From assembly GCA_021234155.1 (NCBI GenBank), contig JAJEKV010000131.1:1078380-1142379 (forward strand): 64,000 nucleotides of DNA, given 5' to 3'. The notes below the pieces were generated by a model, which ran no database searches, was not told the DNA's origin, and was given only the letters and a program-made list of their open reading frames with translations. Origin of the DNA: Isoetes taiwanensis (taxonomy: Eukaryota > Streptophyta > Lycopodiopsida > Isoetales > Isoetaceae). The position numbers and the translations under genes are program-made. Positions 19,767-21,164 of the stretch are shown piece after piece (positions within the stretch are counted from its first letter, which is position 1; the number at the start of each line of letters is the position of its first letter).

Positions 19767-19775
19767 TATAAATAG
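19767..19775 (+). promoter_or_regulatory. TATA box of leader unit 1
   Basis: TATAAATAG preceded by AAAATTGCCCAAG. Its counterpart 2,000 bp downstream (21,767) has a similar preceding AGAATTGCCCAAC. The pairing with hairpins in both places suggests duplicated internal promoters; function not shown. Confidence 0.55.
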
Positions 19776-19873
19776 ATGTAGACCCCCTCATTAAATGCGT
19801 TCCCGCTTTAGAAATTCTGCTCCCGCCCCGGCGATCTTTGGCGCCGACATCGGATTGACGTAAGTCAGCCAAA

Positions 19874-21164
19874 CATGGCCTGTGACGGAAGTAAACCGCC
19901 GAAGTTCCTCGACTCAGGAATTGCCCAAACCCCATGATCCTAGCCCGACATGCAGGATGCTTCAGAGCACCTTTTCAACCAAAGGGACCTGTGACTTCAT
20001 CGAAGCGAGGGAGCACTCTAAGAGCACCGGTGAGGAAGGATCTCAGCAGGAGGAGCACAGACGGGGAGACCAGCGTGGCGCATCGAGAAGAGGGAGGCAC
20101 CTTCGCACGCAGGGACGTGAGCTGCTCAAGAGGAAGAGAGGAGCAGAGCGAGAAAGAGAACCAAGGCTCGCGGAAGAGCAGGATCACCACTCCGAGCCAC
20201 TCCATCGACGAACAATTCAAGCCCGATTCAGCAGGAAGGAGGCAGAGGGAGCAAGAAGAATGAGGGGAGCCAATGCCGAGCCAAGCGAAGAACAGACCTC
20301 CCGGGCTAAGCAAAAGAACGCCGCCGGTGAGAAGAAGAGAGCAGAAAAAGAGAAGAGGGAAGAGGAGGAGGCGAAAGCGGCCAGGAGGCTGAAGAAGAAG
20401 AAGGGGAAGTTCGCGGGTGGGCCAAAGAAAACTCAAGGAGGTTCCACGTAACAAAGACCCCCTAACCCCAATCTCGCTATCATCGAATCGATCACCGATC
20501 AGCCCCCCTCCTCGACGATTCTCCGGATGAAGACTTCAACCCCAACATCGAAGGTGGAAGTTCTTCTAAACCCCTACCTGATGAGCGTGCAATACCCGGA
20601 CCCGAAAGAAAGCCGGATCAAGCGCCAGAAGCCTCCACCATATCCGGACTTGGGGATGAAGAAACAGCCCACGGCCTGCCCGAATCCCTATGTGACAGAC
20701 CCCATCAAGATCTACGAGAGGAAGATGAGGGGAACACAATGCTTACATGAAGAAGTGGGAGGCTTACAACCCCTACTACCAAAGAACAGGTCGATTATCG
20801 AGGGTGGACGGCCCAACAAAGCAGCCAGACCTTAAGGCGCCACCACGAAGCCCAAGCACCCCAAAGCCAGCCAAGAAGAAAGCCAGCCAGAAAGGAGGCC
20901 GAGAGAAGAGCACTCCAGGGAGATCAGGCACTTCCAGCGCAGCCGGTTTCTTAATCCCTCGTGCCCCTTTGCCCGTCTAGTTAGAGAGGTGATGCAAGAC
21001 TTTAACACCGGATGCTGCTGGCACTGCAGGAAGCGGCCGAGCAAAAGATAGTGCAGCATTTTGAAGACTCCACAGCTTGCACCGTGCATGCCATTGCCAA
21101 GCGAGTAACCCCGATGAGAAAGGATATGCAGTTGGCTAGTATAATCAAGGGAGATCCCCATTAG
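19874..21164 (+). pseudogene. leader unit 1 of element A: charged protein with a histone H3-like C-terminal domain
   Basis: ATG at 19,874 (MACDGSKPPKFLDSGIAQTP) follows the TATA box. Shifted frames then give a long Lys/Arg/Glu-rich region (19,882-20,451, including KAARRLKKKKGKFAGGPKK), an acidic part and a basic tail (KPAKKKASQKGG). The end is unmistakably histone H3: REIRHFQ (20,917-20,937), PFARLVREVMQDF and, after one frameshift, ALQEAAE (21,021-21,041), QHFEDS, AKRVTPMRKDMQLA and a stop at 21,164. The usual H3 segment between QDF and ALQEAAE is shortened. REIRHFQ and MRKD resemble plant CENH3 more than canonical H3. Histone H3 folds package DNA in nucleosomes; CENH3 marks centromeres. Here the sequence sits in sense orientation inside a chromovirus, upstream of gag. 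Whether it is expressed is unknown. Confidence 0.75.

Follow-up and report, generated by a model that had tools for sequence, protein, structure and literature searches.

The stretch analysed here, hereafter the window, comprises 64,000 nucleotides of the genome of Isoetes taiwanensis (contig JAJEKV010000131.1, positions 1,078,380 to 1,142,379). It contains an old, decayed chromovirus, that is, a Ty3/gypsy long terminal repeat (LTR) retrotransposon, which we call element A and which carries a histone H3 domain between its primer-binding site (PBS) and its gag gene. All parts of the element lie on the + strand. The 5' LTR (TGTGACG...GTCACA, ends read in the sequence) occupies positions 17,735 to 19,221 and forms a direct repeat with the 3' LTR, whose matched part spans 27,526 to 28,830; the pair is 82.7% identical over 1146 aligned positions and 91.3% identical over 183, from which we conclude that the element is old. 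The PBS (19,223 to 19,235) starts one base past the LTR end at 19,221 and reads TGGTATCAGA, which we take to be of the initiator tRNA-Met type. Downstream of the H3 unit, the remnants of the coding region follow in Ty3 order: a decayed gag (23,889 to 24,356; tblastn with the gag-pol of the related locus L024, 30% identity, E 3e-9), a decayed protease (PR) and reverse transcriptase (RT) (24,700 to 25,879; same query, best E 8e-51), and the end of an integrase (INT) with a chromodomain (25,850 to 26,612; tblastn with the related locus L013, 75% and 64% identity).

The H3 domain, at 20,860 to 21,161, is in two pieces and two frames. It is preceded by a decayed start and a charged insert of the same reading frame (19,875 to 20,859), which reads MACDGSK... 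and meets a stop after 20 residues. The first piece (REIRHFQ...LVREVMQDFNT) covers 20,860 to 21,015 and the second, in the other frame, 21,006 to 21,164, with its stop codon at 21,162 to 21,164. The domain is split between DFNT and LALQEAAE by a frameshift that comes with a short deletion, and the window copy is therefore unable to make an H3 protein. Searched separately, the two pieces (71 and 52 amino acids) both pass the Pfam Histone cut-off of 26.4 bits, at 33.2 bits (E 7e-8) and 26.7 bits (E 7.4e-6), and match solved H3 chains at E 9e-6 and 9e-9, respectively. Such matches are far beyond chance. A preliminary description, made from the sequence alone, had reported an H3 fold in sense orientation between PBS and gag, behind a TATA box, and this is borne out (PBS at 19,223, TATA-like TATAAATAG at 19,767 to 19,775, gag at 23,889). 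The five motifs on which it relied are all present on the + strand between 20,917 and 21,161: REIRHFQ and LVREVMQDF in the frame read from 20,836, and ALQEAAE, QHFEDS and AKRVTPMRKDMQLA in that read from 21,006.

To place this unit, the whole assembly was searched (1,658,258,908 bases in 1,110 contigs, one genome only). The best 150 of 8,705 candidates were scored with the Pfam Histone profile, and all were above the cut-off. Fifteen of them start at profile position 2, as host H3 does, and the eight that were excised (L001-L008) are host H3. In the other 135 the match begins no earlier than profile position 4, and many lie in open frames of up to 494 amino acids. Besides the clade of the window's unit (clade 4), the element-borne genes form three sister clades (1 to 3), in which an N-terminal domain (N-domain) is fused to the H3 core; a listed N-domain match lies within 1.6 kb on the same strand in 50 of the 135 cases.

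The anatomy of the family was read in 20 of these 135 loci (L009-L028), picked as top histone matches. All 20 have an H3 frame of 288 to 494 amino acids, about 2.4 to 3.9 kb into the locus; the LTR start TGTGACGTTCCA is found at 0.1 to 0.5 kb in 19, and the exact PBS string at 1.8 to 1.9 kb in 15. A homologous second open reading frame (ORF2, about 470 amino acids where open) stands between the H3 frame and gag, at about 4.0 to 5.5 kb, in 19 of the 20, L013 being without it. Taken jointly, the downstream frames of L010, L013, L024 and L028 contain Ty3_capsid, protease, RT, RNase H and integrase domains by Pfam. The set is complete in L013, chromodomain included (Pfam Chromo E 6e-8), and likewise in L024 as far as its sequence was fetched; the one downstream frame tested in L028 is without RT. 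Of seven elements followed in the 3' direction, six have a 3' LTR, 91.6 to 96.5% identical to the 5' LTR. Target-site repeats, read in five relatives rather than in element A itself, are exact in three (GTGGC in L024, CAATC in L013, GTGACC in L028) and have one mismatch in two.

Exact LTR-PBS junctions number 795 in the genome, against 0 for the reversed control, and on sequence grounds the genome contains hundreds of related elements. The association with H3 also holds when the starting point is another gene. Among gag matches chosen blind to H3 (the best 150 of 14,581 candidates), at least 57 have a listed H3 unit 1 to 6 kb upstream on the same strand, with 1 and 0 in the controls. Leaving out the clade-1 list and widening the range to 1 to 9 kb, the count is at least 46 of 150, with 2 and 0 in the controls. 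Like the share of PBS junctions given further below, these shares are lower bounds, the unit lists holding the best 134 to 143 among thousands of candidates. The preliminary description had also considered that other copies of element A might lack the unit, or that the profile match might not be significant. What we found is the unit at 39 other scored places, with 73 to 84% DNA identity to that of the window, and an H3 frame at the same site in the sister clades. In all likelihood, then, a family of chromoviruses regularly carries the H3 unit as an accessory gene, placed in sense orientation between PBS and gag.

Two observations concern the make-up of these elements. In L010, the LTR and leader are present twice (229-2463 and 6012-8263, 95.5% identity), the second copy being preceded by GGGGAGAA, which resembles a polypurine tract; L010 is thus nested or recombinant: its two LTRs enclose H3 and ORF2, whereas PR-RT is found only past the second LTR. 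Separately, the best 150 copies of the family gag (G000) are 95 to 100% identical in protein and span clade 1 and clade 3 elements, whose N-domains are only about 35% identical, which suggests that the modules for gag and H3 either differ in evolutionary rate or recombine.

The window's own clade was defined by 40 scored places (the window's unit and the 39 others) out of 1,832 candidates; 18 of the 39 were fetched, as 4 full units and 14 shorter pieces. The H3 fold is entire and without a stop in 10 of the 18, and the frame is open across all 166 codons read in 7 of the 14 shorter pieces; in one copy the histone match reaches E 5e-28. A typical fold reads ALREIRHFQRS[YF]GFLIPRAPFARLVREVMQDFNTGMRVTDEMLLALQEAAEQKIVQHFEDSTACTVHAKRVTLMRKDMQLASIIKG. 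The four full units all start MARTKQTAR, then V or A, then P, which puts V or A at the K9 position. In three of them, the fold follows 351 to 356 codons after the start in the same frame, with two in-frame stops each; in the fourth, start and fold are in shifted frames. The entire clade-4 protein is thus a reconstruction, since only broken full copies were read. Two of the open shorter pieces were also read upstream. In L075, the LTR end and PBS are present together with two hairpin repeats and TATA, as in the window; L074 has one hairpin repeat and TATA, matching the window only from 19,528 and having no PBS string in its 700 bp. In both, TATAAATA stands directly ahead of the H3 unit, as it does in element A.

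The hairpin repeats are 72 nucleotides long with ends that pair (TCTCACACG...CGTGTGAGA). In element A two copies (at 19,409 and 19,596; span 19,409 to 19,667) lie upstream of the H3 unit and two more (at 21,305 and 21,505; span 21,305 to 21,576) downstream, and each pair is followed by a TATA-like TATAAATAG, the second one at 21,767. This arrangement looks like a duplicated leader that would provide a separate promoter for each frame. The pattern was found in none of the 20 clade 1-3 loci at the thresholds used. A segment at 21,912 to 22,199 that resembled ORF2 by eye gave no match to ORF2 when compared, and ORF2 is thus unsupported in element A.

Clades 1 to 3 have a different layout: an N-domain of about 200 amino acids, a low-complexity linker, a basic stretch, then the H3 core. 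The clade 1 and clade 3 N-domain searches gave 143 and 134 scored places (59 to 100% and 74 to 100% identity), with no place in common, and the N-domains of clades 2 and 3 are 30 to 37% identical to the first clade-1 row. The cores are of canonical type and not CENH3, with 83 to 89% identity to host H3. In all 29 intact cores read, the host residue is kept at 57 of 96 core columns, including C110, H113, D123, L126, R129, I130, R83 and R116, positions that we take to be H3-H3 and H3-H4 (tetramer) contacts and DNA-facing arginines. All three clades depart from host H3 at positions 86, 87, 89, 105, 107 and 124 in most copies read. Positions 87 to 90 presumably form the stretch by which chaperones discriminate between H3 types, and given the changes at 86, 87 and 89, clade 1-3 H3 may be deposited differently from host H3. 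The canonical N-terminal tail ARTKQTARKSTGGK is absent: clades 1 to 3 begin otherwise, and clade 4 retains ARTKQTAR only. An ARKS histone-mimic motif was considered as a conserved tail feature and rejected, being present in only 7 of 38 clade 1-3 tails.

Searches for relatives of the element-specific parts were negative. For the N-domain, none was found at E 0.01 among the 7,997 best candidates, scored from a set of 5.8 billion proteins, a search that is blind to unannotated elements in other species; the best Pfam match was at E 0.025, in 1 of 17 members, the best PDB match at E 0.86, and none of 33 pattern matches in IMG/VR was confirmed. ORF2 gave at best E 0.25 in PDB and E 0.12 in Pfam, had no histone match and was not linked to the N-domain. 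When the entire open H3 frame was used as a protein query, 4,456 matches were obtained; none of the 120 listed spans more than 43% of the query, which is what matches to the H3 domain would give.

Purifying selection was estimated from the ratio of mean non-synonymous (dN) to mean synonymous (dS) divergence. For clade 3, we used 20 copies chosen by the N-domain alone (20 of the 134 listed) together with L028, or 210 pairs. The ratio is 0.18 for the tail and 0.08 for the H3 core (median pair 0.05); that of the N-domain, 0.10, leans low because the copies were picked by N-domain similarity. For clade 4 (18 of the 39 other places, chosen by DNA similarity, 153 pairs), it is 0.14 for the H3 fold and 0.21 for the preceding 77 codons. 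Both sets include broken copies, which pushes the values up. Purifying selection on the H3 unit, which the preliminary description had proposed as a check, is thus found in both clades. By this sequence measure, the pattern is that of a gene needed for the spread of the element, not of hitch-hiking debris.

The preliminary description held that the signature residues of the window's H3 lean towards plant CENH3, and for the clade of element A this is reasonable. Clade 4 has REIRHFQ, LIPRAPF, RVTDEMLLALQEAAE and VTLMRKD, among which REIRHFQ and LMRKD are, we assume, marks of plant CENH3; REIRH is present also in the CENH3-like rows P0003 and P0015. Decay of a canonical H3 was considered as the source of these residues and rejected, as open clade-4 folds have them. 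In a tree of 51 rows and 96 columns, which included no Isoetes or seed-plant CENH3 and in which the CENH3-like labels are source names for P0018 and P0026 and were otherwise assigned here from sequence, clade 4 with the window forms a single clade (100/100) that adjoins the Ceratopteris CENH3-like protein P0003 at 85/75. A branch with 98/90 support separates it from canonical H3 and clades 1 to 3, and its stem is long (0.9). Against this, the approximately unbiased (AU) test does not reject a canonical placement of clade 4 (p 0.445). Clade 4 is also without the longer loop 1 that CENH3 has, its DFNTGMRVTDEML being of the same length as host EFKTDLRFQSTAV; loop 1 of clades 1 to 3 likewise has the host length. 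A divergent tail, as in CENH3, is present. When the window's broken copy is the only one of its clade in the tree, its placement is uncertain, the AU test giving p 0.07 for a single clade with clades 1 to 3 and 0.288 for the canonical side. Kinship of clade 4 to CENH3 is therefore favoured, though not proven, and the label that we use is CENH3-like, not CENH3. A single clade of all element H3s is not rejected either (AU p 0.226). There may have been one capture followed by divergence, or two captures; the common site and the related LTR and pol would fit one capture, or a replacement.

The window has further features outside element A. A second, separate decayed H3 unit (REIRHFQQCTNLLIRKAPFERLLREIMQEF ... 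MPKDLHLARRI) lies at 11,759 to 12,081 on the + strand, detected by tblastn (E down to 4e-18) and then read; it has REIRHFQ, and in the tree it sits on a long branch nearest to clade 3 and host H3, its place being unsure. No gag or pol match was obtained beside it by tblastn with the queries used. Close by, a 124-bp duplication (10,780-10,903 and 10,991-11,114, 99% identity) adjoins a TGGTATCAGAGCC string at 10,904. Past element A, a direct repeat pair (28,960-29,562 and 39,937-40,532, 85%) bounds about 11 kb, within which the minus strand shows weak similarity to gag-pol at 33.6 to 35.8 kb, and this stretch is perhaps a second LTR element adjoining element A. An inverted repeat at 41,543-41,700 and 41,884-42,041 (95.6%) is perhaps a small DNA transposon.

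How should a histone gene in a retrotransposon be explained? Very probably, it is a host-derived H3 variant that serves the element as an accessory gene and is kept by selection. An H3-type host gene would have been captured by the chromoviruses, then maintained by selection over many rounds of copying. The preliminary description had raised gene capture as a possibility, and the 39 other places, the H3 frame at the same site in the sister clades and the purifying selection speak for it. If expressed, the gene would give a product with a C-terminal H3 fold, in which the usual H3 tail gives way to a large N-terminal part specific to the element. LTR retrotransposons are restrained by chromatin marks on histone H3, and such a histone would not be markable in the usual way, since clades 1 to 3 have another sequence in place of the tail with K9 and K27, and clade 4 has V or A where K9 would be. 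As the most plausible mechanism, though one that is less likely than not, we propose that the fold would associate with host H4 and be built into nucleosomes, either on the DNA of the element or where it inserts, where the element histone would displace host H3 and could not carry K9-type silencing marks, and where the N-terminal part would be displayed on the nucleosome, usable by the element.

Several points weigh against these readings. Many copies are broken: each of the four full clade-4 units is interrupted somewhere along its length, and an in-frame stop was seen in 7 of the 18 pieces of this clade. The way in which the 20 anatomy loci were picked biases them towards intact H3, and for L018 the stretch that was read contains no 3' LTR. 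Among the 100 PBS junctions listed, out of the 795, at least 19 have a listed unit 0.2 to 3 kb downstream (control 0), a lower bound for the share of elements with an H3 gene. Finally, the N-domain and ORF2 are without known relatives, so that the role ascribed to the gene in the element has no independent support.

Three other roles are considered for the protein: targeting, packaging and decoy. In the first, the H3 variant would be a chromatin component, in the CENH3-like clade perhaps of centromeres, and the N-terminal part or the nucleosome itself would attract integrase and chromodomain, thereby choosing the insertion site. The family does have a chromodomain (in L013, and decayed in the window), and the window's clade has the CENH3-like residues and groups with CENH3-like rows. 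However, its loop 1 is of canonical length, the canonical-type H3 of clades 1 to 3 implies that centromere aiming is not general, and the listed N-domain matches lie on 116 contigs and the listed gag matches on 75. We regard targeting as rather unlikely.

Packaging, in which the protein would condense element complementary DNA (cDNA) or RNA into a nucleoprotein inside the particle and play no part in host chromatin, is a little harder still to sustain. It would agree with a gene upstream of gag and a basic stretch ahead of the fold, and the genomes of some giant viruses are described as being organised by their own histones (PMC12297534). It does not account for the residues fitting the nucleosome that selection has kept, and no second histone was seen in the element, ORF2 having no histone match.

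A decoy, that is, a variant that sequesters the chaperones or methyltransferases of host H3 and thereby reduces silencing, seems improbable to us: the departures of clades 1 to 3 from host H3 at 86, 87, 89, 105, 107 and 124, some of them in the presumed chaperone-discriminating stretch, would suit it, but the N-domain is left unexplained. That a host H3 pseudogene inserted once into a single old element is scarcely credible; the window copy is indeed broken and its element old, yet the unit recurs at 39 other places, the same leader and PBS stand beside another copy, and three sister clades carry the gene. Chance similarity or an assembly artefact, for which the frameshift in the window copy and nothing else could be cited, has a negligible probability in view of the E-values (5e-28 in a clade-4 copy) and of open frames of 400 to 490 amino acids on many separate contigs.

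Plant chromoviruses possess LTRs, a PBS of tRNA-Met type, gag, PR, RT, RNase H, INT and a chromodomain, and this family has the same plan; it differs in that 19 of the 20 loci read have two extra sense frames between PBS and gag, one for the H3 protein and one for ORF2, while L013 has just the first of these. As a comparison system, they are described as Ty3/gypsy elements with a chromodomain (PMC3059260, PMC6317226, PMC2864245). The preliminary description knew of no chromovirus with a histone-variant gene, and our literature search found one precedent, in a fungal DNA transposon. A hAT element of Pyrenophora tritici-repentis is reported to encode H3L, an H3-like frame with tail insertions, multiplied by its element to 26 very similar copies, with expressed sequence tags, and neither H3 nor CenH3 (Manning 2013, PMC3538342). 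The two cases are alike in that a transposable element carries and multiplies an H3-like frame; here, however, the carrier is an LTR retrotransposon, with many diverged copies in several clades, measured purifying selection and a new N-terminal domain. No hAT domain was among the Pfam matches of the downstream frames of the four loci; the elements have LTRs and gag-pol instead of terminal inverted repeats and a hAT transposase.

Other mobile or viral genomes offer partial parallels. A conserved extra frame is also described in plant LTR retrotransposons with additional ORFs (PMC7264820, PMC9289625), among them an orchid Gypsy element with an N6-methyladenosine (m6A) demethylase captured from a host-type gene (PMC9289625); here, the captured gene is a core histone. 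Viral genomes that encode their own core histones, such as the H4 of bracoviruses and the doublets of giant viruses, are those of DNA viruses in the review that describes them, whose main text does not contain 'retro' (PMC9145170). CENH3 (CENP-A) resembles clade 4 in REIRHFQ, LMRKD and a tail unlike that of H3, whereas clade 4 is without the longer loop 1, has a long insert after ARTKQTAR and is element-borne. The word 'histone' is absent from the main texts of a review of extra ORFs in plant LTR retrotransposons (PMC7264820) and of the Isoetes taiwanensis genome paper (PMC8566536), and, by term count, from a review of gene capture by plant elements (PMC13317346). No LTR retrotransposon with a histone gene was found, by title and start of abstract, among the best 10 to 25 papers listed per search of the open-licence literature, bioRxiv preprints being outside that scope.

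It is possible, then, that we are dealing with a retrotransposon lineage that makes its own nucleosomes, in which self-encoded H3 variants of canonical and CENH3 type, with private N-terminal parts, would set the chromatin of the element's own DNA or of its landing sites, including centromeres. If true, this would be, within the literature searched, the first known case of a retroelement with a core histone gene of its own for use in chromatin. Chromoviruses are described as reading chromatin marks to choose their sites (PMC9289625); a family with its own selected H3 and no markable tail raises the question of whether a retroelement can rewrite the nucleosome, and not merely read it. The finding also bears on the origin of odd H3 variants. 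For annotation, it means that histone-domain matches in such a genome may be mostly element-borne, since 135 of the 150 scored here are not canonical host H3.
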